Source of the DNA: an uncultured Lachnospiraceae bacterium
GTDB lineage: Bacteria > Bacillota > Clostridia > Lachnospirales > Lachnospiraceae
DNA: 50,926 bases
Assembly: GCA_904420225.1 (NCBI GenBank)
Contig: CAJFUP010000202.1
Span: forward strand, 1 to 50,926
Reading direction: 5' to 3'
Below, piece by piece: positions 4,512 through 25,744 of the stretch. Numbering within the stretch: position 1 is the first letter of the stretch; the number at the start of each line of letters is the position of its first letter. The position numbers and the translations under genes are program-made. Below the pieces are notes generated by a model. That model made no database searches and was not told the DNA's origin. It saw nothing but the letters and a program-made list of their open reading frames with translations.

Positions 4512-6839
4512 TTGCTTGGAGGAAAGAGAGTGAAACGGATGTCCAAGGGCAGGAAAAAGAAAAAATTTCGCAGAAGAGTCTTCTTTTCTTTATTGGTCAT
4601 AGATATCTTGATGGTTACTATTTTTGGTAGTATTGCCTATATTACGTATATAGATGAAACCCGAAAAAGAAATGATCTCACCATGGACGCGGCGGGAGAG
4701 CGTGTCAAAAATACCCTGGAAAATGTTATGACGGGAATGCGGGAATACTATATGGGAATCTCAGATAACGATGAGATTACTTGGCTTTTGGAGCAGGAGG
4801 AGGTACCATATAGGGCATACAATGAAGTGATCAGTGCCCAGAAGGCGCTGCAGGGAAATTACTCCATCTTAGAGTACGTAGATGGTTATACATTTATAAA
4901 TATAAGAAATGAGTGGATACTAAGTAATTCTGGCATGTATCCCATGGAAGAGTTGAAAAATAAGGAGGACGTGATATATTTTTTGGAAGAACAGCAGAAT
5001 GAGATCGCCTCTGTTTATTGGTATAACAAAATGGAAGACGAAGTTCCCAATACTGCACAAATATCGGAAAGAAAGACGATGGTTTTGGGCGGTATGTTTC
5101 TTATGGAATGGTTTGTGGGACCTGGAGATCATAGAGGAGTTCTTATTATAAGGCTTGATATGAATAAGATAAGAGATCTCATCAGTGATGTAAAGGAGAA
5201 CTATGATGTCTGTCTTTACAGTAAGGAAGGCAAGCTGATATATAGCAGCAGCGATGAGCTGTATGAGGTCAGCAAAAATTTGATGGCAGAATTTGATGGC
5301 AGAAACGACTGGAAAAATATTCGTGAAGCTCAAAAAAATAATTACTCAGTGAATCTTTATTCTTCCACCAAGGATGGAGTGGACTGCGTGATTGGCTATG
5401 ATATGGATTGGGTCAGAGAAAGCGGACAACATCTGCTGTTTATTCTTCTGAGCTTCGGAGGAGGGCTGATAGCTGTATTGGGAGTTTGTTTTTTCCTTTC
5501 GGGAAGAATTTCGAAACCGGTAAACGAGTTGGTTCATTCTATCCAGACTATACTTGGCGAGGAAGAAAGAGATGTCTTTGATGAATTCCTGTTTTTAGAA
5601 AACGGTATGACGGAGCTGCAGAATAATCATGTCTATATGCAGCGCCTCATTCATTCACAGGAAAAAATTTTATTGGAACACTTCATGGAGCATATGATAC
5701 GCGGAGAACTTCCTCAAAAAGAAATTGATAAAAACCTGCAGCAGTTTGGTATTGAGTCAAAGACATGTTATCGTCTTTTGGCGGTTATCGGACTCTTGGA
5801 AGAAGAAAATGGGGATCTGGAAAAAGAAGCAGTTAATATGATGATGGTGAGCCAGATACCGGAAAATTTGATTCAGGAGCTATTTTTGCCGCCCATTTGT
5901 TATGGAGAAGAAATTTTGCTGCTGGTGGGCGCGGAAAATGAAAGTGAACTGCAGGAACTGGTAATGTCTGTATATCAAAAAATGACAGGCTATGTGCAGG
6001 GCACATATAAAATGTCTGTTGCTGTGGGTGGGAGTCAGATTTTCCATTTACTGAAGCATATGAAGACAGCATATCATGAGGCCATGGAAACTCTGCGAAA
6101 TGAGACAACGGCTTTATATTTTGATGAAAAGGCCGTTGCGTTTTATGAGGATTTTGCCGACCGGAAATACATGAAAAACGTCTATGATACTGTGGGAGAA
6201 AATATGCTTATCGAAGCGCTGGATCAGTGTGACAGGGAAAATACATTCCGGCTACTGGATCAGTTTGTGAACCGCATGTGGGAAGCGGAAGTGATCCGCC
6301 ATGAGAGAAGTTATTATATGAACCGCCTCCTGGTATCCATGTTAAACGTACCCTGCAATGCTGGTATTATGATAAATCAAATATTTGGCAACCGCACACA
6401 AGATATTTTTGTGTTTGTCAGAAAAACGTACGACAAAGATAAACTGAAAAGCTTTTTAAAAGAAGATGTGGCAATGCCCATTATGGATGCGTTGGTGGAA
6501 TTTCGCGGCAGTAATGTTTCTGGAATAAAGGAGCAGGTGATAAAGCTGATTAAAGAATCCAAGGGAAGCATTACTTTGGCAGAATGTGCGCAGACATTGG
6601 GCTATCACCCCAGTTATATATGGAAGATACTAAAAAGTGACGGGAATCAGAATTTTACAGAATTGGTGAATTTGGAGAAATTGGAGATGGCAAAACAGAT
6701 GCTTTTGAATAGTAAAGAGTCTGTGGCGAAAATCGCAGAAGAGCTGGGATATTCCAATACGCAAAATTTCATCCGTTTTTTCAGTAAGTATGTGGGTACA
6801 ACGCCTGGGAAATTCCGGAAGGTAAATTCGGGACAGTAG
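4512..6839 (+). CDS. Membrane-anchored AraC-family regulator (YesS-like: TM, extracellular sensor, TM, AraC HTH); exact start uncertain
   Basis: N-terminal TM (VFFSLLVIDILMVTIFGSIAYITYI), second TM (LLFILLSFGGGLIAVLGVCFFLSG), C-terminal AraC HTH (LAECAQTLGYHPSYIWKILK...KIAEELGYSNTQNFIRFFSKYVGTTPGKFR). Confidence 0.92.
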   Translation: MLGGKRVKRMSKGRKKKKFRRRVFFSLLVIDILMVTIFGSIAYITYIDETRKRNDLTMDAAGERVKNTLENVMTGMREYYMGISDNDEITWLLEQEEVPYRAYNEVISAQKALQGNYSILEYVDGYTFINIRNEWILSNSGMYPMEELKNKEDVIYFLEEQQNEIASVYWYNKMEDEVPNTAQISERKTMVLGGMFLMEWFVGPGDHRGVLIIRLDMNKIRDLISDVKENYDVCLYSKEGKLIYSSSDELYEVSKNLMAEFDGRNDWKNIREAQKNNYSVNLYSSTKDGVDCVIGYDMDWVRESGQHLLFILLSFGGGLIAVLGVCFFLSGRISKPVNELVHSIQTILGEEERDVFDEFLFLENGMTELQNNHVYMQRLIHSQEKILLEHFMEHMIRGELPQKEIDKNLQQFGIESKTCYRLLAVIGLLEEENGDLEKEAVNMMMVSQIPENLIQELFLPPICYGEEILLLVGAENESELQELVMSVYQKMTGYVQGTYKMSVAVGGSQIFHLLKHMKTAYHEAMETLRNETTALYFDEKAVAFYEDFADRKYMKNVYDTVGENMLIEALDQCDRENTFRLLDQFVNRMWEAEVIRHERSYYMNRLLVSMLNVPCNAGIMINQIFGNRTQDIFVFVRKTYDKDKLKSFLKEDVAMPIMDALVEFRGSNVSGIKEQVIKLIKESKGSITLAECAQTLGYHPSYIWKILKSDGNQNFTELVNLEKLEMAKQMLLNSKESVAKIAEELGYSNTQNFIRFFSKYVGTTPGKFRKVNSGQ

Positions 6840-7096: not shown

Positions 7097-7186
7097 AATT
7101 TAAGTAAATGGGCCCGGGACACGGGATAACGGGTACCGATTCGTCGTAAAAAATTACGAGAAATAATAAGAAGGAGGTTGAAAAAA

Positions 7187-8170
7187 TTGGGAAAAGCAAC
7201 CAAAAACAAAAGTGTGATGCCGCAGACGATTACACATAAGAAAACGTCGTTTGGCTCCTATTTTAAATCACACTATTGGCTGTACATTCTGATCATACCA
7301 GGTGTTTTGTATATGCTCTGCTTCAATTACCTGCCTATGCTCGGATTGGTTATGGCATTCCAGGACTTTAATCCATTCAATGGAAAAGGGGTTTTTGATG
7401 CTTTCATTAAAAGCCCATGGGTAGGGTTGGATGTTTTTAAGGATTTCGTGCTTGGATATGATTTTACCCGTGTTTTGTATAACACGCTGGCAATTTCAAT
7501 TTTGAGCCTAATCTTTTTCTTCCCGGCACCCATTATCCTGTCGTTGCTGTTGAATGAAATAAGAAGCCAGGGATATAAGAGAGTGACACAGACCCTTGTT
7601 TATATTCCTCACTTTATTTCACTGGTTATTGTGGCGTCTCTTACGCAGCAGTTGTTCAGTACCACTGACGGTGTTGTATATCAGATGATAGCTTCTGTAG
7701 TGGGCAGAAATAACGCGCCGGATCTTTTGAGCGATCCAGATCTTTTCAAGGTGTTGATTGTAGGACAAAATATCTGGAAGGAAACAGGTTATGGTACCAT
7801 TATCTTCCTGGCAGCATTGTCTGGCGTGGATCAGGAACAGTATGAGGCAGCCAGAGTGGATGGAGCAGGACGCTGGAGATTGATGTGGCATATTACGCTG
7901 CCTGCTATTCGGGGAACCATTGTTATCATGCTGATCTTGAAAGTGGGACAGATTCTGAATACCGGCTTCGAGCAGATTTATCTGATGCAGAATGCGCTGA
8001 ATCGTACTGCGTCTGAGACATTTGATACATATATTTACCGAATCGGTATTGAAAAAGCCGATTATTCACTTGGTGCTGCTGCTGGTATGTTCAAGTCCAT
8101 TGTCAGCTTGGTTTTGGTGCTTGCCGCCAATAAGATTGCCAAGATGTGTGGCGAGTCTGGATTCTATTAA
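7187..8170 (+). CDS. ABC transporter permease, LplB type
   Basis: Multi-TM carbohydrate permease with EAA-type loop (EQYEAARVDGAGRWRLMWHITLPAIRGTI); likely TTG start after AAGGAGG. The ORF-track start at 7178 abuts the RBS. Confidence 0.92.
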   Translation: MGKATKNKSVMPQTITHKKTSFGSYFKSHYWLYILIIPGVLYMLCFNYLPMLGLVMAFQDFNPFNGKGVFDAFIKSPWVGLDVFKDFVLGYDFTRVLYNTLAISILSLIFFFPAPIILSLLLNEIRSQGYKRVTQTLVYIPHFISLVIVASLTQQLFSTTDGVVYQMIASVVGRNNAPDLLSDPDLFKVLIVGQNIWKETGYGTIIFLAALSGVDQEQYEAARVDGAGRWRLMWHITLPAIRGTIVIMLILKVGQILNTGFEQIYLMQNALNRTASETFDTYIYRIGIEKADYSLGAAAGMFKSIVSLVLVLAANKIAKMCGESGFY

Positions 8171-8188: not shown

Positions 8189-9100
8189 ATGGCAAAAAAA
8201 TCTGTGGTTAAATCTCAGAAGATTAAGAGAACGCCGGGTGATCAGGCTGTACAGGTTTTGATTTATGTTATTGTCGGCCTTTTTGCTTTGGTCACTGTTC
8301 TTCCGTTCCTTTATGTGGTGGCCGGATCCTTCGCCACTGAACGAGAGCTGACAGAAAGAGCGTTTTTTATCATTCCGTCTGAGTTTTCTTTGAATGCGTA
8401 TCAGTATCTGCTGAAGACGGGAGATGTGTTCAAGGGACTGAAGAACTCCCTGATTGTAACTGTGGTGGGTACTTTCATCAATATGTTTTTCAGCTGTACA
8501 TTGGCATATCCCCTTTCCAGGAAATATTTCCGCGGAAGAAATTTCTTTACCAATATGGTTATCATAACCATGCTTTTCTCCGGCGGAATGATCCCCATAT
8601 ATATTGTGGTCATCAATGTATTCCACCTGAAAAACACTTATTGGGCGTTGTGGCTGCCCATTGCCATCAATGCGTTCAATATGATTATCATTAAGAACTA
8701 CTTCCAAGGGCTTCCCAGTGAGCTGGAAGAAGCGGCGCGTATGGATGGATGTCAGGATTTGGGAATCTTTGTAAAGATTATCCTGCCGCTGTCCAAGCCG
8801 GTATTGGCATCGGTTTCCCTGTTCTATGCCGTATCCCATTGGAACTCTTACATGAACGCCATGCTGTACATTGATGATGATGAAATGGAAGTTGTTCAGA
8901 TAGTATTGAGGAGAATTATTTTCCTAACCAGTGGTATTACACAGGATTCCACCTTTGATTGGGGTATCTTTGGACAGCCGCCGGAAAAAGCTGTAAAAAT
9001 GGCTACCACAGTTGTGGCTACTGTTCCGATTTTGATTGTTTATCCTTTTGTGCAGAAATACTTTACACAGGGCGTTATGGTTGGAGCGGTTAAGGGCTGA
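8189..9100 (+). CDS. ABC transporter permease, YtcP/LplC type
   Basis: Multi-TM; ELEEAARMDGCQDLGIFVKIILPLSKPVLASVSLFYAVSHWNSY. Confidence 0.93.
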   Translation: MAKKSVVKSQKIKRTPGDQAVQVLIYVIVGLFALVTVLPFLYVVAGSFATERELTERAFFIIPSEFSLNAYQYLLKTGDVFKGLKNSLIVTVVGTFINMFFSCTLAYPLSRKYFRGRNFFTNMVIITMLFSGGMIPIYIVVINVFHLKNTYWALWLPIAINAFNMIIIKNYFQGLPSELEEAARMDGCQDLGIFVKIILPLSKPVLASVSLFYAVSHWNSYMNAMLYIDDDEMEVVQIVLRRIIFLTSGITQDSTFDWGIFGQPPEKAVKMATTVVATVPILIVYPFVQKYFTQGVMVGAVKG

Positions 9101-9185: not shown

Positions 9186-10796
9186 ATGAGATTAAACAAG
9201 AGATTGGCTGCCACCGCGATGGCAGCGCTGATGGCTTCTTCAATGCTGGTTGGCTGCGGAAGTGACAGCGGCTCTGCAACTCAGGCAGGCACCTCTGCTG
9301 CTGGCGGATCTGAGTCCGGTCAGGAAAGCGGAGACTACCCCACCATCACATTTATGCTTACTGACCATTCTGGCAATGCGCTGAAAAATGATCATTCCGA
9401 TGAAGTCATTGCCAAGATGGAAGAGTACACAGAGACACATGTAGACTTCCAGTGGCAAGCCAACGACACATACGGCGAGAAATTTGGTGTCGTTTTGATG
9501 GATAAGGCCAACATGCCCATGATCTTGACCGCGCCCAGTGCCAATATCGAGGGATCGGTTATTGAGGCTGCCAGAAAGAATGCTTTCTGGGATTTGACTC
9601 CGTTCTTGGAGGATGAGGAAGCATATCCCAACCTGTCTCAGATCAGAGATGAGGTTAAGGATGGTCTGACGGTTGACGGTAAGCTGATTGGTTTGCCGCG
9701 CTCCAGAGTAATCGGACGTAATGGTATGGTTTATCGTACAGACTGGGCAGAGAAGGTGGGCATCACAGAAGAGCCGACCACTGTCGATGAAGTGTATGAT
9801 ATGCTGTACAAGTTTACGAATGATGATCCGGACGGCAATGGCAAGGATGACACTTGGGGTATGGAAATGTGTAAGTATACAGGCCCCATCGACATCATTC
9901 AGACATGGTTCGGCGCTGGCAATGGCTGGGTAGAGCAGGACGGCAAACTGGTACCGGTACACCAGACAGAAGAGTATATGGAAGCGGTAAATTGGATGAA
10001 GAAGATCTATGACGAAGGCCTGATCCGCAGTGACTGGGCTGCCGTTGATACCACAGACTGGGGCAAGGGCATCCAGAAGGGTGAAGTCGGTGTGTTTGTA
10101 GACGTTCTGGATTCCGGTAAGCGTGCTTGGGATTATTATGAGGACAACAATATTGCCTCCGTTGTAAATCCGGATGAAACGGCCACGATTACATATGTGG
10201 GACCGGTTGCCAAGGATGCGAATAGTGAGAGAAGAACTATGGCTACTTCTGGTATCGCTGGTGTATTCCTGATCACAAAAGATGGTGCCAAGACAGAGGA
10301 AGATGTAAAGAATTGTCTGCATTACCTTGATAAGATGTGCGATAATGAGATGCTGGTTCTTGCCGATTACGGTCTGGAAGGCATCACATACGAGATCAAT
10401 GAGGATGGAGAGATTGAACTGTTGGATACAGGGCTGGATGTTTCTCAGACACCCAACAGTGGTCTGAATCAGGCTCTTTGCTATGTTCCCAATTCAGCCT
10501 CCACAGATCCGGTGCTGAAGCAAGATACACAGACACAGCTGCTCAATGAGATTCAGAAGTTCTCTGAAGATTACGCTGTATTTAATCCGGCAACCAAGTA
10601 CCTGCTGAGTTCTGATGCCAATGCTGAGAATGGTACAGAGCTGACACAGATTCTGGATGATGCGAGAACACAGTATATCTGCGGTGCCATCGATGAGGCT
10701 GGTCTCCAGGCACAGTGGGATGAATGGGCTAGACGCGGCGGCGAGCAGATGATTCAGGAAGTAAACGAGCTGTATCAGGCTGATCAGAATAAGTAA
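9186..10796 (+). CDS. Extracellular solute-binding lipoprotein, LplA type
   Basis: Lipobox MRLNKRLAATAMAALMASSMLVGCGS; oligosaccharide-binding family 1-like body; downstream of two permeases. Confidence 0.93.
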   Translation: MRLNKRLAATAMAALMASSMLVGCGSDSGSATQAGTSAAGGSESGQESGDYPTITFMLTDHSGNALKNDHSDEVIAKMEEYTETHVDFQWQANDTYGEKFGVVLMDKANMPMILTAPSANIEGSVIEAARKNAFWDLTPFLEDEEAYPNLSQIRDEVKDGLTVDGKLIGLPRSRVIGRNGMVYRTDWAEKVGITEEPTTVDEVYDMLYKFTNDDPDGNGKDDTWGMEMCKYTGPIDIIQTWFGAGNGWVEQDGKLVPVHQTEEYMEAVNWMKKIYDEGLIRSDWAAVDTTDWGKGIQKGEVGVFVDVLDSGKRAWDYYEDNNIASVVNPDETATITYVGPVAKDANSERRTMATSGIAGVFLITKDGAKTEEDVKNCLHYLDKMCDNEMLVLADYGLEGITYEINEDGEIELLDTGLDVSQTPNSGLNQALCYVPNSASTDPVLKQDTQTQLLNEIQKFSEDYAVFNPATKYLLSSDANAENGTELTQILDDARTQYICGAIDEAGLQAQWDEWARRGGEQMIQEVNELYQADQNK

Positions 10797-10994: not shown

Positions 10995-13616
10995 ATGAAA
11001 TTTCACAATTTGGAAAATCGCCGTATAGGCGGATACACCACATGGGGGAGTATATGGAAGAAAGGTCTTGTGTGGCCGGGGCAAGAATTTACAGTCACCA
11101 GAGAAGACGGCCGGGAGATTCCTGCACAGACACGGTTCACGGCTTATTGGCCGGATGGATCTGTCAAGTGGGCGGCCCATACGGCGGATTCCGGGAAGCT
11201 GGGGGAAACTGTGGTGGTGGAACCCGGTGGGAACAGGACAGGAAAATGCATAGAAATCATGGAAAAGGCCCAGTTCTGGCGGGTGGAAACAGGGAGAATC
11301 CAGATGGAAATCCCCAAGTCGGGAGACGCCATTTTGCGGCATTTGACAGTGGACGGAGTGATTAGGGCGGATCATGCCTCTCCTGTGTTGATTTTGGAGC
11401 AGAGAACAAAGACAGAAGATGGAGCTGTTCGGCGGCAGCGGGAATATACAGGACGGGTGGAGACCGTCACTGTGGAAGAGCAGGGCCCCATTTACTGCGT
11501 GATAAAAGTGGAAGGAATCCATGAAAACAGCAGTACCGGTGAGAAAAAGATGCCATTTATTATTCGTATGGCCGTTGGCGCAGATAGCGATGAGATCCAT
11601 TTTACCCATACATTTCTTTATGACGGGAATCCAGAATGTGATTTTCTCAAAGGTCTGGGGATCCGATTTTACTGCCCCATGGATGGCCCTTTGTATAACC
11701 GCCATGTGAAATTTGGCGTGGATCACGGCATGTTCCATGAAGCCATGAATTTGCTGCTCACTTGGCATCCCAGGATCCCCCAAGAGATTTATCAGGCCCA
11801 GATGAATGGAGAGAAGCTGGAACTTGCGGAAGAGTCCGACGGGGAAGTGATACAGGCATGCCGTGAAATGCCGACATGGAGTCATTACACTCTGGTTCAG
11901 GACAGCGCCAGCCATTTTTCCATTGGCAAAAAGGTGGATCAAGAGGGCTGCTGTATGCTGGATGCTTTGCATGGATACCGGGCGCCGGGATATGGTGCGC
12001 TGGGCGCGGAAAATGGCGGATTGATGTTTGCACGCCGGGATTTCTGGCAGAAATATCCGGCCGGATTCTGGATGAGCGGCATTAGCCGGGATATGGCGGA
12101 GGCCACCGTGTGGTTTTGGGCGCCGGAAGCCGAGGCCATGGATTTTCGTCACTATGCCGTGAAAGGGTATCCCCAGACTTACTATGAGGGATTCGCTGAA
12201 GTAGGCGCCACCCCTTACGGAATCGCAAATACCAATGAATTCTCCATCAAGGCATTCTCCGGTGTCATTCCTTCCGATGAGGAGCTGCGCGCCTTTGGGG
12301 AGAGGATTCAAAAACCGGCCGTGTATGTGGGGACACCAGAGTATTACCATGAATTGCACGCCTTTGGTTTCTGGTCCCTGGTAAAGAGAGAAAGCCAGAT
12401 GGAAAATTGGCTGGAGGATCAGCTGGAGCGTGCTGTGGAATTTTACCGGGATGAAGTGGAAATCCGCGGTTGGTACGGATTTTTCAATTACGGAGATTTT
12501 ATGCATACCTATGACCGGACCAGACATTGCTGGAGATATGACATGGGAGGATACGCTTGGCAGAATACGGAGCTGGTGCCCACGCTTTGGCTCTGGCTGA
12601 TGTTCCTGCGCACGGGCCGAGAGGATGTCTTTTCTCTGGCGGAAGCCATGAGTCGTCACTGTTCGGAGGTGGATGTTTACCATTTTGGTCCGCTGAAAGG
12701 AATCGGCTCTCGCCACAACGTAAGACATTGGGGGTGCTCCTGCAAGGAGGCCAGGATCGCCATGGCGGGCCATCACCGGTATTACTACTATCTGACAGGC
12801 GATCATAGGATGGAGGATGTGTTTGACGATGTGAAAGATGGAGATTTCGCCCTGTTGAATATGGATCCTCTGCGTCATTTCTACAAAAAGGAAGATATGC
12901 GGCATCCAACCCATGCCAGGAGCGGTCCAGACTGGTCTTCATTCTGCTCCAATTGGCTGACCCAGTGGGAGAGGTTCCATGATGAGAAATATCGGGATAA
13001 AATTCTCACTGGAATAGAGGATCTGAAAAAAACTCCCCTGGGCTTGATCTCTGGACCGGATTTTGAGTATGATCCCAAAGACAGTCATTTGTATTATATC
13101 GGGGAGCGAACAAAAGGGGGAACACATCTGCAAATCTGTATGGGAGCGGCGCAGACTTGGCTGGAGTTGGGAGATCTGCTGGAAGATGAGGACTGGAAAG
13201 AAATGATGGCCGACTACGGCAGATTTTATTATCTTCCCCAGGAAAAGAGGCAGCAGGTATCCAGAGGACTCATTGGAGACCGAGAGGCTTCTCTCCCCTT
13301 CATGGCGGCAGCCATGGGTGCGTATGGAGCCGCCCATCATGGGGATAAAGAATTGGCCAAGATTACATGGCAGATTCTTATGCGGTCCATCATGAGCGAT
13401 ACCAAGAAGGATGGGTTTGCACAGGAACCGGTGGAGAATGCGGGAAATCAGAAAGTGCTTCCAGAGGTACCCTGGATCACCACCAATTTCACCTCCCAGT
13501 GGTGCTTAAACGTGATCATGGCGCTGGAATTTATCCGGGAGGAGCTGCCAAAGACCATGGAAGAATTGGATCAGTGGATGGCAGATTTCCCCATGACGGA
13601 ATTCCATAAAGCATAG
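10995..13616 (+). CDS. YetA-like / putative PL26-type exo-rhamnogalacturonan lyase
   Basis: 873 aa; N-terminal RRIGGYTTWGSIWKKGLVWPGQEFTVTREDGREIPAQTRFTAYWPDGSVKWAAHTA resembles recalled YetA/PcRGLX proteins; RG-I gene neighbourhood. Confidence 0.7.
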   Translation: MKFHNLENRRIGGYTTWGSIWKKGLVWPGQEFTVTREDGREIPAQTRFTAYWPDGSVKWAAHTADSGKLGETVVVEPGGNRTGKCIEIMEKAQFWRVETGRIQMEIPKSGDAILRHLTVDGVIRADHASPVLILEQRTKTEDGAVRRQREYTGRVETVTVEEQGPIYCVIKVEGIHENSSTGEKKMPFIIRMAVGADSDEIHFTHTFLYDGNPECDFLKGLGIRFYCPMDGPLYNRHVKFGVDHGMFHEAMNLLLTWHPRIPQEIYQAQMNGEKLELAEESDGEVIQACREMPTWSHYTLVQDSASHFSIGKKVDQEGCCMLDALHGYRAPGYGALGAENGGLMFARRDFWQKYPAGFWMSGISRDMAEATVWFWAPEAEAMDFRHYAVKGYPQTYYEGFAEVGATPYGIANTNEFSIKAFSGVIPSDEELRAFGERIQKPAVYVGTPEYYHELHAFGFWSLVKRESQMENWLEDQLERAVEFYRDEVEIRGWYGFFNYGDFMHTYDRTRHCWRYDMGGYAWQNTELVPTLWLWLMFLRTGREDVFSLAEAMSRHCSEVDVYHFGPLKGIGSRHNVRHWGCSCKEARIAMAGHHRYYYYLTGDHRMEDVFDDVKDGDFALLNMDPLRHFYKKEDMRHPTHARSGPDWSSFCSNWLTQWERFHDEKYRDKILTGIEDLKKTPLGLISGPDFEYDPKDSHLYYIGERTKGGTHLQICMGAAQTWLELGDLLEDEDWKEMMADYGRFYYLPQEKRQQVSRGLIGDREASLPFMAAAMGAYGAAHHGDKELAKITWQILMRSIMSDTKKDGFAQEPVENAGNQKVLPEVPWITTNFTSQWCLNVIMALEFIREELPKTMEELDQWMADFPMTEFHKA

Positions 13617-16254: not shown

Positions 16255-18405
16255 ATGGAACATTTGGAGCTTTATTATGACAAACCGGCGGCTGTGTGGG
16301 AAGAAACGCTGCCTGTGGGCAATGGCAGTCTGGGGGGGATGGTATTTGGAGGTATCCAAAAGGAAGTCATTGGTCTCAATGAGGAGAGTTTGTGGAGCGG
16401 ATATCCCAGAGAAAAGGATAATCCCGGCGCATATGCCAGCCTGGATACCGTGCGCCGACTGATTTTTGATGGAAGATGTCGGGAAGCGGAACAGTTGATT
16501 CAGGAAACCATGCTGGGGGAATACAATGAGTCCTATATGCCTCTGGGAAAGCTGATCATTGCCTATGAAAATCTAAAAGAAGAAAGGACGCTGGCGTATC
16601 GGCGGACCCTGGATTTGAATCGGGCAGAGGCTGTGGTGGAGTTTACAGACGCAGCGGGGGTTAGGTACCGGCGGGAGGTGTTCTGCAGCTATCCCCGCTC
16701 AGCCATGGTCATTCGCCTGTGTGCGGATCAGCCGGTGATGAAGCTGCGGATTCAGCTGGAATCGGAGCTGCGGTGTCAGGTGGCAGGCCGCCAGTGGGGA
16801 CTCTCTTTTTCCGGCCAGTGCCCGGAACATGTGGATCCTTCCTATATTCGCTCCGGCAGAGAGGCATTTGTATGGGGATATCGAGGCATGCATTTCCAGG
16901 GGGAAGTGCGCCTGCTTTCCTGTGACGGCAGTTTTCAAACCGGAGACAGCGGCATCTGCGTGGAGAATGCTGGGGAAATGGTGCTGGTTTTATGGGCAGT
17001 GAATCCCTGGAAAGCCGCCGCCGGTTTGACGTATGATCAAATGCGGGAGGAACATGAACGGGATTATGGTGCGCTGTTTGATTCCGTGGAACTGTATCTG
17101 GGAGATCAGCTTCCTCTACCCACGGACGAGCGCCTGCGCCGTCTCAGAGAGGGACAGGAGGATGAAGGGCTGTATGCCCTATACTTCCAGTATGGCCGTT
17201 ATCTTATGATTGCCTCTTCCCGAGCAGGCGGACTTCCAGCCAATCTCCAGGGGATTTGGAGCTGGCAGATGCAGGCCCCGTGGAGCAGTAATTGGACCAC
17301 CAACATCAATGCGGAGATGAACTATTGGCCTGCCCTGTCCTGTGGTCTTGGCGCGTGTATGGAACCGTATTTCTCCATGGTGGAGCGTTTGGCCAGGCGC
17401 GGCAGGCAGACTGCCAGGATTCATTATGGATGCCGAGGATTTGTCCATCATCACAATGCGGATTATTGGGGATACACCAATCCAGTGGGCATTGGATATG
17501 GAGAAGCGCAGGGACGCCATGGCTCGGTGACGTGGTCCATGTGGCCCATGGGAGGTGCCTGGCTGGTACAGGAATTTTTCCGCTACTACGAATACACCAA
17601 CGATGAGACGTTTTTGAGGGAGCGGGCATATCCAGTGACGCGGGAGGCAGCGCTGTTTCTGCTGGACTGGCTGGTGGAGCATGACGGTTATTATGTCACC
17701 TGTCCTTCCACATCTCCGGAAAATAAGTACATCACAGAAGAGGGAGAGACCTGCTGTGTTACCCAGTCTTCCGCCATGGATATGGAGCTGATTCGGGAGG
17801 TCTTTGACCATTTTGAGGAAATTTGCCGGATTTTGTCCCTGGAAGATCCCATCCTGCCGGATATCCGCAAAAAGCGGGAACGGCTGGCGCCCATTGGCAT
17901 CGGGAGCCGTGGACAGCTTTTGGAGTGGCATGAAGAGTATCGGGAGGCAGAGCCGGGACACCGCCATATTTCGCACCTGTACGGTCTGTTTCCGTCGGAA
18001 CTTTTCGAGGGAGACGAGACCATGACGGAGGCGTGCCGCGTTTCCCTGATGGGACGCCTGGAAAACGGCGGCGGTTATACGGGATGGAGCTGTGCCTGGA
18101 TCATAAATATGTTTGCCGTGCTGAAGGACGGGGAAAGGGCGTATCAATATCTCAATACGCTGCTGACGCGCTCCACATATCCCAACCTATGGGATGCCCA
18201 TGAGCCATTCCAGATTGACGGAAATTTCGGCGGAACTGCCGCCATTGCCAATATGCTGGTACAGGATAGAAAAGGCCAGATAAAAATCCTGCCCGCTTTG
18301 CCAAAAGCCTGGAAAAAAGGGTATGTCAAAGGGCTTTGCCTAAAGGGAGGCAGGCGAGTGGACATTCGCTGGGATGAAAATGGGGAAACCCACGAAATCC
18401 ATTGA
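16255..18405 (+). CDS. GH95 alpha-L-fucosidase/alpha-L-galactosidase
   Basis: AAVWEETLPVGNGSLGGMVFGG, NWTTNINAEMNYWPA, CPSTSPENKY, PFQIDGNFGGTAAI motifs. Confidence 0.94.
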   Translation: MEHLELYYDKPAAVWEETLPVGNGSLGGMVFGGIQKEVIGLNEESLWSGYPREKDNPGAYASLDTVRRLIFDGRCREAEQLIQETMLGEYNESYMPLGKLIIAYENLKEERTLAYRRTLDLNRAEAVVEFTDAAGVRYRREVFCSYPRSAMVIRLCADQPVMKLRIQLESELRCQVAGRQWGLSFSGQCPEHVDPSYIRSGREAFVWGYRGMHFQGEVRLLSCDGSFQTGDSGICVENAGEMVLVLWAVNPWKAAAGLTYDQMREEHERDYGALFDSVELYLGDQLPLPTDERLRRLREGQEDEGLYALYFQYGRYLMIASSRAGGLPANLQGIWSWQMQAPWSSNWTTNINAEMNYWPALSCGLGACMEPYFSMVERLARRGRQTARIHYGCRGFVHHHNADYWGYTNPVGIGYGEAQGRHGSVTWSMWPMGGAWLVQEFFRYYEYTNDETFLRERAYPVTREAALFLLDWLVEHDGYYVTCPSTSPENKYITEEGETCCVTQSSAMDMELIREVFDHFEEICRILSLEDPILPDIRKKRERLAPIGIGSRGQLLEWHEEYREAEPGHRHISHLYGLFPSELFEGDETMTEACRVSLMGRLENGGGYTGWSCAWIINMFAVLKDGERAYQYLNTLLTRSTYPNLWDAHEPFQIDGNFGGTAAIANMLVQDRKGQIKILPALPKAWKKGYVKGLCLKGGRRVDIRWDENGETHEIH

Positions 18406-18443
18406 ATTTCTATGAAAGAGGAGATAGAAAGGGAGGAGCAGAC

Positions 18444-19625
18444 ATGGAAGATACACGTTCCAGACTGCAGGAGGTGCTGGATCAGGCAGTCAGAGAAAGA
18501 TTTGTGGCGGGGGCCAGCGTGCTGGTACTCCAGGGCGGAAAAGAGAGGTGGTTCTGCAAAAGCGGTATGCGGGATTTGGAGAATGGTCTGGAAATGGAGC
18601 GGGATACCATTTTTCGCCTGTATTCCATGACAAAGCCGGTGACATCGGCGGCGGTCATGATTCTTTTGGAAAGAGGGCTTTTGGACCTGGGCGAGCCGGT
18701 GGCAAAATTCCTGCCGGGCTTTCAGTGGCAGAAGGTGGCAGACGGCAGGCTGACCGTGTCAGTGCGCCGCGATGTGACGGTGAAAGATTTGCTTTCCATG
18801 ACATCTGGGCTGTCGTATCCCGATGCTTCCACAGTGGCCGGGAGCGAAGCCGCAGAGGTATTTCGCGTTCTGGATGAACGGCTTTACACCGATCATGCCA
18901 TGACCACCCAGGAAGTGGCCAATGCTCTGGGCAGATGCCGACTCTGTTTTCAGCCAGGGGAGCATTGGATGTATGGAACCAGTGCGGACATTTTGGGGGC
19001 TGTGGTGGAAAAAGTTACCGACATGCGTTTTGGGGAGTTTCTTAGAAAGGAGATTTTGGATCCTTTGGGCATGGAGGATACAGGATTTTATGTTCCTCAG
19101 GAAAAGCGGGAGCGCTTGGCAAGGGCATATGAAAATCAAAAAGGGGAATTGCGGGAGGTGAAGACGAATCACCTGGGAATTCGCTATTCCATGGATGAGG
19201 AACCCGCCTTTCAGTCCGGCGGCGCCGGTCTGGTATCCACCGTGGATGATTATGGAAAATTCGGCACCATGCTGCTGAACGGCGGTATTTTGGAAGGCGT
19301 GCGGATCTTAAAACCGGAAACGGTGAGGTTTATGACGAGGGGAAAGCTGCTTTCCCATCAGCAGGCGGATTTTGAGGCGGGCTGGGAACACTATGCGGGA
19401 TATACATATGGTAATTTGATGCGCGTCCTGGAACAACCGGGACAGGCATGGAATATGGCTTCTGCCGGGGAATATGGCTGGGATGGCTGGCTGGGAGCTT
19501 ACTTTACCAACGATCCTAAGAATCAGGTTACCTTCCTTTTGATGTACCAGCTTTTAAATGCCGGAACCACATCTTTCACCAGAAAAGTGAGAAATGTGGT
19601 CAACAGCGGACTGGAATACCTGTAA
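18444..19625 (+). CDS. Beta-lactamase-family (SxxK) serine hydrolase
   Basis: SMTKPVTSA (SxxK), YGTSADILGAVVEK; start MEDTRSR preceded by GGGAGGAG. Confidence 0.92.
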   Translation: MEDTRSRLQEVLDQAVRERFVAGASVLVLQGGKERWFCKSGMRDLENGLEMERDTIFRLYSMTKPVTSAAVMILLERGLLDLGEPVAKFLPGFQWQKVADGRLTVSVRRDVTVKDLLSMTSGLSYPDASTVAGSEAAEVFRVLDERLYTDHAMTTQEVANALGRCRLCFQPGEHWMYGTSADILGAVVEKVTDMRFGEFLRKEILDPLGMEDTGFYVPQEKRERLARAYENQKGELREVKTNHLGIRYSMDEEPAFQSGGAGLVSTVDDYGKFGTMLLNGGILEGVRILKPETVRFMTRGKLLSHQQADFEAGWEHYAGYTYGNLMRVLEQPGQAWNMASAGEYGWDGWLGAYFTNDPKNQVTFLLMYQLLNAGTTSFTRKVRNVVNSGLEYL

Positions 19626-19667
19626 GTTGAGCGTCTGCTGGTCTGTGATATAGAAAGGAGAAGAAAA

Positions 19668-20918
19668 ATGGATCCCATATTGGTGAATACAATTGATATC
19701 GCCGCCGCAGGAGGCGGAAAAGGTCTTTTGGGCGATGTGGACGGGGACGGACGCATGGAGTTGATTTTTGTCCAGGGAGACAGTGGAATTGATGACCGCT
19801 ATGTGCCTCATCAGGCGGCTTGTGTCACGGCATACCGCCTGGATGGAAGCCTGCTGTGGCAAAAGGGGACGCCCATGGAAGTGCCGGGAAATTTCGGCGC
19901 CGATTTTCCGGCGCAGGTGTGTGATATTGATGAGGATGGCAATCTGGAAGTGCTCTGTGTCATGGAAGGAAAATTCCTGATTTTGGACGGCCGGACAGGA
20001 GCGGTGAAGCGGGAACATGAGCTGCCGGATCCGCAGGCCCATGACTGTATCATTGTGGCCAATGTCAGCGGCGGAAAACATGCCACCGATATTATTTTGA
20101 AAGACCGCTATCGCCGCATGTGGGTGATGAATCGTGATTTTGAGCTTTTGTGGACCCACCAGGGGAATCTGGGGCATTTTCCATGGCCCTGTGATATCAA
20201 CGGGGATGGGTACGATGAGATCATGGCGGGATATGATTTGCTGGATCATCAGGGAAAGATTCTCTGGTCCTGCCGTGACCTGGACGACCACGCCGACTGC
20301 CTGTGGGTGGGAGACGTCAATGGTGACGGAAAACCGGAGATTGCCGTGGGCGGCAGCGTTACCTGCCTGTATGATGTCCAGGGACAGGAACTGTGGCGTT
20401 ATGAGGGATCTGTGGAGTCCCAGCACATTGCTCTGGGAAAATTTCTCCCCCAAAAACCAGGGCTTCAGATTGCCGGACTGGACCGTATTGTCAGAGGCGA
20501 TGGCTACAAAGGACAGTGGGACGGAAAAGATGGCATGTTTCTGTTGGACAGCGATGGAAAAGAAGTTTGGAAAGAAGACAGAAAGACCAAGGGCTGGCTG
20601 ACCATTGTAGATGCTTTATACAACTGGAATGGAGAGGGGAGAGACTACATACTGGCATATCGAAGAGGGGGCGGCGTCACACCGGCGCTATATGACGGAG
20701 AGATGAATCGGGTGATATCTTTTCCGGAAGACGGTTATGTTCTTCACGGGGACCTTTTGGGCAGGGGCATAGAGGATGTGGTGATTTATTCCAAAGAAAA
20801 AGCCTGGATTTACACAGGAACGGCCTTTGATTTGTCTGCTCCTCCTTCTGGAAATCCGGTGCCCCAGTCCAAGCGTCTTTCCCATTCCACACTGTATCCG
20901 GGCGGAGAATATCAATAA
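19668..20918 (+). CDS. FG-GAP/VCBS beta-propeller protein, function unassigned, distantly PL11-like
   Basis: Repeated calcium-loop motifs GDVDGDGRMELIF, CDIDEDGNLEVLC, CDINGDGYDEIMAG, GDVNGDGKPEIAVGG; no signal peptide. Confidence 0.85.
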   Translation: MDPILVNTIDIAAAGGGKGLLGDVDGDGRMELIFVQGDSGIDDRYVPHQAACVTAYRLDGSLLWQKGTPMEVPGNFGADFPAQVCDIDEDGNLEVLCVMEGKFLILDGRTGAVKREHELPDPQAHDCIIVANVSGGKHATDIILKDRYRRMWVMNRDFELLWTHQGNLGHFPWPCDINGDGYDEIMAGYDLLDHQGKILWSCRDLDDHADCLWVGDVNGDGKPEIAVGGSVTCLYDVQGQELWRYEGSVESQHIALGKFLPQKPGLQIAGLDRIVRGDGYKGQWDGKDGMFLLDSDGKEVWKEDRKTKGWLTIVDALYNWNGEGRDYILAYRRGGGVTPALYDGEMNRVISFPEDGYVLHGDLLGRGIEDVVIYSKEKAWIYTGTAFDLSAPPSGNPVPQSKRLSHSTLYPGGEYQ

Positions 20919-20965: not shown

Positions 20966-20979
20966 GCGAAACGTTTCGC
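20966..20979. promoter_or_regulatory. LacI-family-like operator palindrome
   Basis: Perfect 14-bp palindrome GCGAAACGTTTCGC just downstream of TGTGATAAAAT (extended -10-like). Confidence 0.55.
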
Positions 20980-21040
20980 AGCTCTTTCCCTATGGGAAGG
21001 AGAACGCGAATCATGGCTTGTGGGAATGGAGGATTTGGAT

Positions 21041-21622
21041 ATGATGATGCATGATTTAGTGGAAAAAAGCCGTTCGTACCGTCGGTTTTATGAGGATCGG
21101 TCCATCACTGTGGAACAGTTGAAACAGCTGATTGATTTGGGGCGTTTGTCTCCCAGCGGCGGTAATAACCAGTATATCAAATATGTGGCGGTATGCGATG
21201 GAGAAATGAACGCCAAGGTTTATGAATGCCTGGCTTGGGCGGGATATCTGAAAGATTGGGATGGCCCCAAGGAAGGGGAGCGCCCGTCCGGATACATTAT
21301 TCTGCTCCGGGACAAAGCCATCAATCCCAATATGTCGGTGGATGAGGGAATCTCTGCCCAGAGTATTTTTCTGGGAGCCACAGAAATGGGGCTGGGCGGC
21401 TGCTTTCTGATGAATGTCCAGAGAGGGAAATTGGCCAAGATTCTGGATTTGGATGAGGAGCGTTTTGCCATTAGTATGGTCATTGCTCTGGGAGTGCCCA
21501 AAGAGACTGTGGTCATTACTGATGTGAAAGAGGATGGAGATATCAAGTATTACCGGGATGAGAATCAGATACATTATGTGCCCAAGAGAAGCCTGGACGA
21601 CGTGGTGGTGAAGACATTCTGA
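21041..21622 (+). CDS. Nitroreductase-family protein
   Basis: LVEKSRSYRRFYEDRSITVEQLKQLIDLGRLSPSGGNNQYIKYVAV ... LGATEMGLGGCFLMNVQR; GGAGG upstream of ATG 21041. Confidence 0.93.
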   Translation: MMMHDLVEKSRSYRRFYEDRSITVEQLKQLIDLGRLSPSGGNNQYIKYVAVCDGEMNAKVYECLAWAGYLKDWDGPKEGERPSGYIILLRDKAINPNMSVDEGISAQSIFLGATEMGLGGCFLMNVQRGKLAKILDLDEERFAISMVIALGVPKETVVITDVKEDGDIKYYRDENQIHYVPKRSLDDVVVKTF

Positions 21623-21658: not shown

Positions 21659-22432
21659 GTGGAACCATTTACCATTTATCTGGCCGCGGACTCCACGGTT
21701 CAGACATTCCAGAAAAAGGATGCGCCTCAGATGGGATGGGGGCAAAAATTGTATGAGTCATTTCGGGACAGTGAGAAGTGCCGGATCTACCATCCGGATA
21801 ATACAAAATTTGATCAAGTGACCCGATATGAAATGCCTTGGGTGACCATTGATAACAGGGCCATGGCTGGAAGAAGCAGCCGTTCATTTCGGGACGAGGG
21901 GAGACTGGCGGATATTGATGCCTGCATTCAGCCAGGGGATTTTATGTTTGTCCAGTTTGCCCATAACGACGCCAATCAGGCGAAAAAAGAGCGCTATATT
22001 CCGGTGGAAGAGTATGCAAACTCCCTGATGACATATGTGGATGTGTGCAGAAGGCATGGGGCCCAATGCGTGTTGGTGACTGCCATTGCCATGAGGAATT
22101 GCGGGGATAATCGCGAAGGGATCTTTACGTTTAGTTTTCCTGAGTATCGTCATGCCATGATGCGGCTGGCCAGGGAAGAACATTTGCCGCTTTTGGATTT
22201 GGGCAGACGGACCACGGACTACTGCCGCCGTATTGGAAAAGAGGCCAGCAAAGATATTTTCCTGTGGGTGAAGCCGGGGGAATATCCCGAAAGCAGTCTT
22301 CGGGAAGGCAAAGAGGATAATGCCCATTTACAAGAAAGGGGGGCGGCGGTTTTCGCATCTTTGCTGACAGATCTAATCCGAGAATATCAGGCAGATGACA
22401 GGCTGGATCCCATCAAAGCGCTGCTGAAATAG
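21659..22432 (+). CDS. SGNH hydrolase, rhamnogalacturonan acetylesterase-like (CE12)
   Basis: YLAADSTVQTF, MGWGQKL, NRAMAGRSSRSF, VQFAHNDANQ, and C-terminal DNAHLQERG (DxxH); GTG start. Confidence 0.92.
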   Translation: MEPFTIYLAADSTVQTFQKKDAPQMGWGQKLYESFRDSEKCRIYHPDNTKFDQVTRYEMPWVTIDNRAMAGRSSRSFRDEGRLADIDACIQPGDFMFVQFAHNDANQAKKERYIPVEEYANSLMTYVDVCRRHGAQCVLVTAIAMRNCGDNREGIFTFSFPEYRHAMMRLAREEHLPLLDLGRRTTDYCRRIGKEASKDIFLWVKPGEYPESSLREGKEDNAHLQERGAAVFASLLTDLIREYQADDRLDPIKALLK

Positions 22433-22479
22433 GTTGGATCACTGGGAAAGAGACTGTGGATGGCGAAAAGGAGAACAAA

Positions 22480-23592
22480 ATGGCTCATTATACGTATAAA
22501 GATTATAAGCCAGTGGAGTATGCAAAAATGGCATGCGATACAATGATGCGAAAGTTCAGAGCAGAGGACTTGCCCCCCAAGGGCAGGTTCCACTATCACC
22601 AGGGAGTGTTTTTGTCTGGTATGCAGAAGACGTATGATCTTTGCAAAGATCAGCGATATTACGATTATATCAAGGCATGGGTGGATTCCATTATCGATGA
22701 AAATGGGGAAATTCATACCTTTGACCCTGGTCAGATGGATGATGTACAGCCGGGGATTCTGTTGTTTTTCCTCTACGGAAAAACCGGAGACGGGCGGTAC
22801 AAAAAAGCTCTGGATACGTTGGTGCCCTGTGTCATGAATCTGCCCAGGACGCCGGAAGGAGGTCTGTGGCATAAGGATTGCTGTCCCAATCAGATGTGGC
22901 TGGACGGCCTGTACATGGGCGGCCCCATTTGCGCGGAATACGCGTTTCGTTTTCATCAGCCGGAATACCTGGAGCTGGTCATAGAGCAGGCACTTTTAAT
23001 GGAAAAGATGACCCGAGATGAGAAGACGGGACTCTGGTACCATGCCTATGACGCTTCCAGAAAAATGCCTTGGGCCGATCCAGAGACTGGGCTTTCCTCC
23101 GAGTTTTGGGGCCGTTCCATTGGCTGGGTGCCAGTGGCTGTGCTGGACGATCTGGAGTTTGTCCCCAAAAATCGCCAGGAATACAAGGAATTGGGCCGTT
23201 TGGTTCATGATCTGCTGACAGCAGTGATTCGGTATCAGGATCCGGAGAGCGGGCTGTGGTATCAGGTGGTGGATAAAGGGGGCCAGAAGGGAAATTGGCT
23301 GGAAACCTCCTGCAGCTGTTTGTTTACGGCGGCCATAGCCAGGGCTGTCCGCGTGGGACTGTTGGATAAAGGCAGTTTGGACTATGCCAAAAAGGGATTT
23401 GAGGGAGTCATCGACCGCTTGAAATGGGAGGGACAAGATTTACTGGTGGATCACATTTGTGTGGGAACCGGTGTGGGGGATTATAAGCATTACTGCCGCC
23501 GTCCCACCAGCACCAATGATCTCCACGGCATGGGCGCGTTCCTCATTATGTGCGCGGAGATTGAGGCAATCGCTCAAAAATTGAATCATTGA
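22480..23592 (+). CDS. GH105 unsaturated rhamnogalacturonyl hydrolase (YteR/YesR-like)
   Basis: HYHQGVFLSGMQKTYDL, QMWLDGLYMGGP, EFWGRSIGWVPVAVLDDLEFVP motifs; ATG 22480 with RBS. Confidence 0.94.
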   Translation: MAHYTYKDYKPVEYAKMACDTMMRKFRAEDLPPKGRFHYHQGVFLSGMQKTYDLCKDQRYYDYIKAWVDSIIDENGEIHTFDPGQMDDVQPGILLFFLYGKTGDGRYKKALDTLVPCVMNLPRTPEGGLWHKDCCPNQMWLDGLYMGGPICAEYAFRFHQPEYLELVIEQALLMEKMTRDEKTGLWYHAYDASRKMPWADPETGLSSEFWGRSIGWVPVAVLDDLEFVPKNRQEYKELGRLVHDLLTAVIRYQDPESGLWYQVVDKGGQKGNWLETSCSCLFTAAIARAVRVGLLDKGSLDYAKKGFEGVIDRLKWEGQDLLVDHICVGTGVGDYKHYCRRPTSTNDLHGMGAFLIMCAEIEAIAQKLNH

Positions 23593-23602
23593 ATCAAGGT
23601 GC

Positions 23603-23621
23603 CCCGCCTCTTTAAGGCGGG
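23603..23621 (+). other. Intercistronic RNA hairpin
   Basis: CCCGCCT-CTTTA-AGGCGGG between GH105 and PL22 genes; no T tract. Confidence 0.6.
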
Positions 23622-23664
23622 AGTGGATAATCAGAGGGGAAAACCCCGGAAACGGAGGAGAAAT

Positions 23665-24867
23665 ATGGCAATCGGAGATAAGATTTACAATCACTTTTCT
23701 TCCTATATTGATCCCTATACGGGAACAGAGGTGGAGCGTCTGACAGAGCCGGATCATACCAGCCATCATATGTATTTTTATAATCGAATGACCACCAGCG
23801 ATGGCAAATATCTGCTGTACTGTCCGGAGCTTGACGGGCAGCGGCAGCTATATATGATGAATTTGGAAAATGGCGAGGCGGTTCAGCTGACAGAAGGGCC
23901 GGAGGTGGATGAGTACGGCGGCATGTTTTCTTGGGATGACCGCTATGTGTTCTATCAGCAGGCCAACTGTTTTTATAAACTGGATCTCTCGGATTTATCC
24001 AGAGAATGTTTTTATGAGGTACCGGAGGGGTGGAGCGGCGGAAGCGCCGGAATGAGCGACGATAACCGTTTCATGACCATTGTGGAGACTAAAAAGGATA
24101 CGGTGGCTGCCAAGGGCGGCGGGAAAAACTGGGATTTCTTTGCCCAGAATTGTCTGGCCAAGCCCCTGTGCCGCATTGTTTATATCGATGTAGAGAAGAA
24201 GACCAGTCACGTAGTGATCCAGGATCGCTGCTGGTTTGGCCATACCCAGATTCGTCCAAAGGATCCGAATACCATTATGTTTTGCCATGAGGGTCCCTAT
24301 GATCTCATTGATGCCAGGCTGTGGCTGGTACAAAGCGATGGCAGCCGCTACCGCTGCTGCCGGGAGCAGCCCAACGATCTGATCTTGACTCACGAGTTTT
24401 GGCTGCCGGACGGATCAAAGCTGGCATTTGTCTATCGGGAGACCACGGGAGATAAGGTGGAAAATATCCGTATGATTGATCCAGATACACTGGAGGAAAC
24501 CATTTTGATGCCTTGCTCTCCTTTTGCCCACTTTATTTGCGATAAGCAGAACAAATACATGGTGGGAGACTCCCAGGGGAGCGACGTTCCCATCCATCTT
24601 TTAAATCAGGAAGAGCAGGAAAAAGCCAGAGCGGAGGGCATTATTAAGAATGATTTTATTTATCTCATCGATGTGGCTGCCAGAACAGAGACGAAGCTGT
24701 GCTACCACGGCACGTCATGGCTGGCCAAGCACGGAACTCCGCAGGACGCCCATCCCCATCCCTGCTTTACCCAGGACAATCGCTATGTGATATTCGTGTC
24801 AGATAAAGATGGAAAGCCCTGTATATACCGTGTGGATTTGGAGAAGTATTTTGCGGGAAAACATTGA
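23665..24867 (+). CDS. Oligogalacturonate lyase-like (PL22)
   Basis: VERLTEPDHTSHHMYFYNRMTTSDGKYLLYCPELDGQRQLYMMNLENGEAVQLTEGP, repeated propeller blades, C-terminal HPHPCFTQDNRYVIFVSDKDG; ATG 23665 with GGAGGAG. Confidence 0.9.
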   Translation: MAIGDKIYNHFSSYIDPYTGTEVERLTEPDHTSHHMYFYNRMTTSDGKYLLYCPELDGQRQLYMMNLENGEAVQLTEGPEVDEYGGMFSWDDRYVFYQQANCFYKLDLSDLSRECFYEVPEGWSGGSAGMSDDNRFMTIVETKKDTVAAKGGGKNWDFFAQNCLAKPLCRIVYIDVEKKTSHVVIQDRCWFGHTQIRPKDPNTIMFCHEGPYDLIDARLWLVQSDGSRYRCCREQPNDLILTHEFWLPDGSKLAFVYRETTGDKVENIRMIDPDTLEETILMPCSPFAHFICDKQNKYMVGDSQGSDVPIHLLNQEEQEKARAEGIIKNDFIYLIDVAARTETKLCYHGTSWLAKHGTPQDAHPHPCFTQDNRYVIFVSDKDGKPCIYRVDLEKYFAGKH

Positions 24868-24940: not shown

Positions 24941-25744
24941 ATGAAAAAGAATATTTATACTTGTTTTCCGGGAGGAAAGCATAAAGTGCTGACCATGAGC
25001 TATGATGACGGCAGGGAAGAGGACCGCAGGCTGGTGGCATTGTTCAATGAATACGGCATCAAGGGTACCTTCCATGTGAACTCCGACCTGATGCGGGATG
25101 AGAAGCGAATCCCCATCTCCGAGTATAAGACCCTTTACCAGGGCCATGAGGTGTCTGTTCACACCGCCACACATCCCACCATCGCCCGCTGCCCCATGGA
25201 AGAGGTGGTGGAACAGATCGTGGAGGACCGGAAAGCGCTGGAAGAAGCGGTGGGCTATCCCATCCGCGGCATGTCGTACCCCAACGGCTCTTTTTCTCAG
25301 GAGATCATCGATGTACTTCCGGCTCTGGGTATCCGGTATGCCAGAACAGTGGGGAGTACCGATCAGTTTGGCATGCCGGAAAATTTTCTCCGGTGGACGG
25401 CTACCTGCCATCACAATCACAATCTGCAGAAACTGGGAGAGGAATTTGTGAATCTCCATAAAAAGCAGTACCTGTATATGATGTATGTATGGGGGCACAG
25501 CTATGAATTCGGACTTCAGGACAACTGGGATGTGATGGAGAATTTCTGCAAGCTGGTGGGGCATAGGGATGATATTTGGTATGCCACCAATATCCAGATC
25601 GTGGACTATATGGATGCGGCCAAACGCCTGCAGTTTACAGCCAATCTGGATAAAGTATACAATCCGTCCTTCCAGTCGGTGTGGATTGCCGTAAATGACA
25701 ATCAAATTGTGGAGATAAAGGGCGGCGAGCTGAAGGAGATCTGA
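24941..25744 (+). CDS. Polysaccharide deacetylase-family protein (CE4-like)
   Basis: LTMSYDDGREEDRRLVALFNEYGIKGTFHVNSDL, HTATHPT, MSYPNGSFS. Confidence 0.9.
   Translation: MKKNIYTCFPGGKHKVLTMSYDDGREEDRRLVALFNEYGIKGTFHVNSDLMRDEKRIPISEYKTLYQGHEVSVHTATHPTIARCPMEEVVEQIVEDRKALEEAVGYPIRGMSYPNGSFSQEIIDVLPALGIRYARTVGSTDQFGMPENFLRWTATCHHNHNLQKLGEEFVNLHKKQYLYMMYVWGHSYEFGLQDNWDVMENFCKLVGHRDDIWYATNIQIVDYMDAAKRLQFTANLDKVYNPSFQSVWIAVNDNQIVEIKGGELKEI

Follow-up and report, generated by a model that had tools for sequence, protein, structure and literature searches.

A short PL11-like FG-GAP propeller protein encoded in a rhamnogalacturonan I operon of an uncultured Lachnospiraceae bacterium

Propeller lyases and the operon around the gene

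The PL11 lyases, represented here by YesW, YesX and B. licheniformis RGL11 (PDB 2z8r, 2zuy and 4cag), are eight-bladed FG-GAP propellers associated with rhamnogalacturonan I (RG-I) operons. According to a passage in PMC8787155 that follows Ochiai et al. 2007, the Ca2+ of the PL11 cleft is held by two histidines, one aspartate and one glutamate, an arginine and a lysine bind the carboxylates, and a tyrosine stacks on the sugar. Propeller lyases which act on bonds between rhamnose and a uronate are also represented by PL42, PL24 and PL25 (FoRham1 and the ulvan lyases); PL42 is exo-acting, frees terminal rhamnose and has a His-His-Asp motif (PMC10951650), and no metal was seen in the catalytic site of FoRham1 (PMC8377490). 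Titles and abstracts of papers dealing with FG-GAP proteins and rhamnogalacturonan or polysaccharide lyases contained no account of the protein family described here.

The window, by which we mean the whole stretch of 50,926 nucleotides that was analysed, contains a co-directional operon in which the gene of interest is situated between an esterase gene and a nitroreductase gene (Table 1). Its open reading frame begins with ATG and specifies 416 aa, half the length of the neighbouring PL11 (814 aa), and no hydrophobic signal segment was detected on an N-terminal scan. DxDxDG loops are canonical in four blades (from residues 23, 86, 176 and 216) and degenerate in the other four. In these respects, as well as in its location among importer, PL26, PL11, GH95, CE12, GH105 and PL22 genes, the protein is as the original prediction had described it, namely a calcium-loop repeat protein without signal peptide, about half the size of PL11 and embedded in an RG-I operon. 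Since the operon enzymes from PL26 to PL22 all lack signal peptides on the N-terminal scan, the 416-aa product is expected to be cytosolic and, provided that RG-I is its substrate, to work on fragments that have been imported.

No promoter of its own was found within the operon for the 416-aa gene, and no tandem DNA repeats were found within it, so that the propeller repeats appear to be ancient at the protein level. Comparison with three homologs gave a dN/dS of approximately 0.05-0.07, with dS near saturation, which indicates, as far as such an estimate goes, that selection on the protein is strong.

Between this gene and that of the nitroreductase a perfect palindrome, GCGAAACGTTTCGC (20966-20979), was observed which resembles a LacI-family operator; it occurs as a single copy in the window, and the genes downstream of it may thus be separately regulated. 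The nitroreductase gene retains the same place in two related loci (L039 and L055), while a more distant nitroreductase adjoins the homologous gene in L051. Homologs of the deacetylase gene at the operon end directly adjoin the homologous gene in L046, L050 and L101, and the polysaccharide deacetylase is therefore a recurring partner.

Table 1. Positions of the operon genes and of sequence features of the 416-aa protein in the window
Feature	Positions	Strand	Basis
AraC-type regulator with sensor-like region	4512..6839	+	
ABC oligosaccharide importer, permease 1	7178..8170	+	
ABC oligosaccharide importer, permease 2	8189..9100	+	
Probable lipoprotein solute-binding protein	9186..10796	+	Lipobox-like N-terminus, gene order; no Pfam match
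PL26-type exo-rhamnogalacturonan lyase, without signal peptide	10995..13616	+	
PL11 rhamnogalacturonan lyase, without signal peptide, 814 aa	13775..16219	+	
GH95 glycosidase	16255..18405	+	
Beta-lactamase-fold esterase/hydrolase	18402..19625	+	
AAAGGAG ribosome-binding site of the short-form gene	19654..19660	+	Sequence
416-aa PL11-like eight-bladed FG-GAP propeller gene (short form), cytosolic	19668..20918	+	Pfam, AlphaFold, Foldseek, profile alignment
DVDGDG loop, blade 1, residues 23-28	19734..19751	+	
DIDEDG loop, blade 2, residues 86-91	19923..19940	+	
K145-D-R147-Y148, blade-3 B-C loop; K, R and Y are invariant in both forms	20100..20111	+	
H170, aligned to first His ligand of PL11 cleft Ca2+	20175..20177	+	Alignment; PMC8787155
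DINGDG loop, blade 4, residues 176-181	20193..20210	+	
H208-A-D210, aligned to second His and Asp ligands of PL11 cleft Ca2+	20289..20297	+	Alignment; PMC8787155
DVNGDG loop, blade 5, residues 216-221	20313..20330	+	
Q252-H253, position of PL11 carboxylate-binding Arg; Q-Arg in most long forms	20421..20426	+	Alignment; PMC8787155
B6-C6 loop insertion, residues 274-287, at YesX extra-loop position; absent in long forms	20487..20528	+	
Nitroreductase-family protein	21020..21622	+	
CE12-type (GDSL) rhamnogalacturonan acetylesterase	21659..22432	+	
GH88/GH105 unsaturated rhamnogalacturonyl hydrolase	22456..23592	+	
PL22 oligogalacturonate lyase	23599..24867	+	
Polysaccharide-deacetylase family protein, operon end	24941..25744	+	

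Fold, kinship with PL11 and the putative pocket

An AlphaFold model of the 416-aa protein, built on an alignment of 28 homologs, reached a pLDDT of 88.6 and a pTM of 0.90 and arranges 32 strands in eight four-stranded blades, the last of which is closed by an N-terminal strand (residues 4-10). The leading PDB matches of this model in Foldseek were the PL11 lyases YesX and YesW, followed by the B. licheniformis PL11; phmmer found YesX and YesW by sequence alone at approximately 1e-9, and hhalign against full-length PL11 gave an alignment that is colinear with YesW over all eight blades, with a probability of 99.2% for the profile of the 416-aa protein and its close homologs (the short form) and of 99.7% when longer relatives (the long form) were included. 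Taken together, the colinear profile alignment, the Foldseek ranking and the phmmer matches indicate that the likeness to the PL11 propeller, on which the original prediction had remarked, reflects common descent beyond shared repeats.

Pfam recognised FG-GAP repeats and, in fragments, RGL11_C in the protein at 47.3 bits (cut-off 27), while an NCBIfam search gave no meaningful match. A full RGL11_C score was not reached, short forms obtaining 37-51 bits as compared to several hundred for full-length or near-full-length PL11 genes; the N-terminal RGI_lyase beta-sheet domain (PF18370) carried by the PL11 of the window is absent, the 416-aa protein starting at the first propeller strand in the model; and the ligand set is incomplete. 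The protein, which is approximately 20% identical to PL11, is therefore not filed as a member of that family and is by the features tested here a distant relative. The original statement that it belongs recognisably to no CAZy family thus requires qualification, as it does score as a distant relative of PL11, while it is correct that several substrate-binding features of PL11 are missing.

As regards other propellers, PL42, PL24 and PL25, which have seven blades as against eight in the 416-aa model, gave no match in PDB sequence searches with the protein or its profile, nor did they occur among the 50 Foldseek matches listed. Vibrio cholerae Bap1 (6mlt) possesses an eight-bladed FG-GAP/VCBS propeller and was matched by the family profile at 1.8e-16, but it is a biofilm matrix protein, and the aligned segments appear to resemble one another as repeats and not by colinear homology. 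The secreted or surface location of FG-GAP binding or adhesion proteins of the integrin or Bap1 type does not fit the 416-aa protein, which has no signal segment.

The spacing of the PL11 ligands fits the alignment motifs GNH, GHGD, VHE, DVGR, NNGTK and YNQP, a mapping made in this analysis. Three of the four ligands of the cleft Ca2+ are retained by this mapping (H170, H208 and D210, none of which varies among the 28 short and 20 long sequences), while the position of the glutamate is occupied by Gly or Ser. The carboxylate-binding arginine aligns to H253, the loop with the lysine (NGTK) is deleted, and the position of the tyrosine is ambiguous in the alignment, being S405 in the 416-aa protein and Tyr in 75% of its relatives. 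When the four DxDxDG loops are excluded, 26 of 75 positions on the top face (D-A and B-C loops) are polar invariants of the short form, while the bottom face has 1 among 52 (Fisher p=2e-6); those which are invariant in the long form as well include D79, D126, K145, R147, Y148, H170, H208, D210 and Q252. On the alignment and model, such one-faced invariance is the pattern that a single active-site pocket would give, and it makes a purely non-catalytic role less likely.

Short and long forms and their genomic company

The designation of the protein as an orphan does not hold, as 19 homologous loci at 67-84% identity were obtained from one genome scan and further homologs were found besides. Identity ranges from 54 to 84% among the close homologs, which come from Lachnospiraceae (Eisenbergiella tayi among them), Paenibacillaceae and further Firmicutes families and from a plasmid of the haloarchaeon Halomontanus rarus. 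The plasmid-encoded protein of the latter, annotated 'hypothetical' (L120:19899-21188), is 55% identical to the 416-aa protein and retains every tested pocket residue except R44 and the variable S405; its gene lies in a plant cell-wall cluster with GH78, GH2, GH43, CE12 and PL26-like genes, which suggests that RG-I use was transferred between domains.

Long-form proteins of approximately 650-700 aa (for example in L014-L018 and L075-L084) are found in Lachnospiraceae and other Firmicutes families and are 31-36% identical to the 416-aa protein over the whole propeller, but they carry an additional N-terminal lectin-like domain of approximately 240 aa, lack the blade-6 insertion and in most cases have Arg at 253. 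The long-form AlphaFold model was poor (pLDDT 61) and served for a rough fold call of the lectin-like domain. A relation of this domain to DUF1961 as ortholog was rejected, the match having a probability of 32% over 52 columns only, and both were treated as lectin-like. A third and more divergent long-form subgroup (L115:9394-11325 and L116:7090-9099) has as neighbours GH43 (Pfam, L115) and, judged by eye, arabinose isomerase-like and sugar kinase-like genes. Further propellers of approximately 560-610 aa are PL11-like (G281:C137:8633-11834, G541:C33:19475-20536 and G392:C110:17638-18441), one of them directly adjoining a true PL11 gene, and a 681-aa protein without Pfam match (L063:9041-11083) is encoded directly upstream of GH105, near both long-form and short-form genes.

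With PL11, PL26, CE12, GH105, PL22 and DUF1961 taken as RG-I markers and long-form loci as control, at least one marker was present within 10 kb at 15 of 29 short-form loci as compared to 2 of 17 long-form loci (p=0.007, the loci not being phylogenetically independent); the remaining 14 short-form loci had no marker within that distance, several of them having short flanks. The co-occurrence with PL11 genes, which had been put forward as a check, was borne out, since PL11 was present in all four short-form genomes of the family draw as compared to 23 of 199 genomes of that draw (p=1e-4); when family and phylum draws were combined, 11 short-form genomes were tested, of which 10 contained it. 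Among long-form carriers it was present in 6 of 14. In Eisenbergiella the gene order is importer-PL11-short form-PL22, another genome has importer-PL26-DUF1961-deacetylase-short form-GH105, and importer, PL26, DUF1961, short form and GH105, the genes covered by the comparison, are likewise present in Paenibacillus cellulosilyticus. Short form and PL11 follow one another in L103 and L105-L107, the short form of H. rarus adjoins the CE12 rhamnogalacturonan acetylesterase, with the PL26 homolog, GH78, GH2 and GH43 nearby, and one MAG encodes a fusion of the short form with a CE12 domain. The short form is thus genuinely linked to RG-I genes, repeatedly so in different families and also in an archaeon.

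DUF1961 genes were observed close upstream of the short form at four loci (L041:9284-9946, L046:9220-9918, L101:7793-8497 and L121:13158-13805). The separate DUF1961 of the short form and the built-in lectin-like domain of the long form possibly represent parallel solutions. Long-form genes have GH3, GH43, GH36/31-type and, by eye, arabinose-utilisation-like genes as neighbours, and the broader family of short and long forms is therefore not confined to RG-I; for the same reason, the chemistry of the family may be broader than uronate elimination.

Possible activities and their meaning for RG-I use

Our tentative reading, to which we assign a probability of a little under one half (about 0.48), is that the 416-aa protein is a Ca2+-stabilised, cytosolic, PL11-derived propeller enzyme with a remodelled active site, probably an exo-lyase on RG-I oligosaccharides. 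RG-I fragments would be brought in by the ABC importer of the operon, and a short oligosaccharide would bind in a pocket in the middle of the top face, where the D-A and B-C loops bring together D79, H125, D126, K145, R147, Y148, H170, H208, D210, Q252, H253, R273, R276 and R333. A Ca2+ ion on H170, H208 and D210, together with the basic residues, may neutralise the uronate carboxylate, and a base of the pocket may drive beta-elimination as in PL11. With regard to exo action, YesX is termed exotype in its own PDB title, and its extra blade-6 loop is reportedly the cause. In the profile alignment, residues 274-287 of the short form are inserted relative to PL11 at the place where YesX differs from YesW in this loop (short pairwise alignments with YesX and YesW being uninformative), and the insertion would by its position block one end of the cleft and favour action at the chain end. 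The products would feed the GH105, PL22 and CE12 enzymes of the operon. The original suggestion of a new exo-type lyase or oligosaccharide-processing enzyme is accordingly a reasonable lead, given the kinship with PL11, the RG-I link and the insertion at the YesX position, with the lyase part of it being our inference. Against the exo-lyase reading are the absence of the NGTK lysine and of the glutamate ligand, the replacement of Arg by His, the ambiguous tyrosine, and the presence of PL11, PL26 and GH105 in the operon, which leaves no evident need for another lyase.

The loss of several carboxylate-binding and stacking elements of PL11 may also be taken to mean that the scaffold has taken on hydrolysis or some different reaction, directed at side-chain or modified residues of RG-I oligosaccharides, such as arabinosyl, galactosyl or glucuronosyl branches. 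Propellers are able to change chemistry, as GH145 and PL42 have one fold (PMC8377490), and the long-form sister group keeps the company of GH3, GH43 and arabinose-type genes; we nevertheless regard a non-lyase enzyme as somewhat unlikely, since the invariant His/His/Asp site of the lyases is kept along with Lys and Arg residues suited to a carboxylate, and the short form tracks PL11, PL26, GH105 and CE12. An ordinary, short and divergent PL11 endo- or exo-lyase with the substrate of the neighbouring PL11 would agree with the colinear alignment and with an RGL11_C match above the Pfam cut-off, but the scores far below those of PL11 genes, the lack of RGI_lyase domain, NGTK loop and glutamate ligand, and the co-existence with PL11 in one operon make it very improbable.

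Some FG-GAP propellers serve as binding modules, and the protein might correspondingly be a non-catalytic partner, either a cytosolic binding or scaffold propeller that works with CE12 or with DUF1961 (a YesU-like lectin), or a sensor of RG-I oligosaccharides. The fused or adjacent CE12, the proximity of DUF1961 (L041, L046, L101 and the P. cellulosilyticus plasmid), the lectin-like domain on the long forms and the finding that YesU, a DUF1961 lectin of B. subtilis, binds fucosylated glycans (PMC6120924) are in keeping with such a role. It is unlikely all the same, as 26 charged or polar invariants on a single face, the majority of which the archaeal homolog shares with those of Firmicutes, would seem to exceed what is usual for binding modules. 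A more specific form of the exo-lyase reading, by which the short form would represent a new polysaccharide-lyase family, made up of cytosolic exo-lyases that remove terminal rhamnose from Rha-(1->4)-GalA-(1->2)-Rha by beta-elimination, in alternation with GH105, is in our estimate improbable. If it were true, removal of the non-reducing terminal rhamnose would create an unsaturated GalA terminus on which GH105 could act, and both bacteria and haloarchaea could degrade RG-I fragments from their non-reducing ends with neither an alpha-L-rhamnosidase nor a galacturonidase.

Among the polysaccharides of the diet and of the plant cell wall RG-I is one of the most complex, and the steps of its use inside the cell have been less studied in Firmicutes than in Bacteroides. 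A conserved enzyme of PL11-like type which several Firmicutes families share with an archaeon would close a gap in the RG-I pathway and explain many annotations as 'hypothetical' or 'FG-GAP' protein, and it would represent a case of a lyase propeller that has lost its substrate loops and gained a new pocket.
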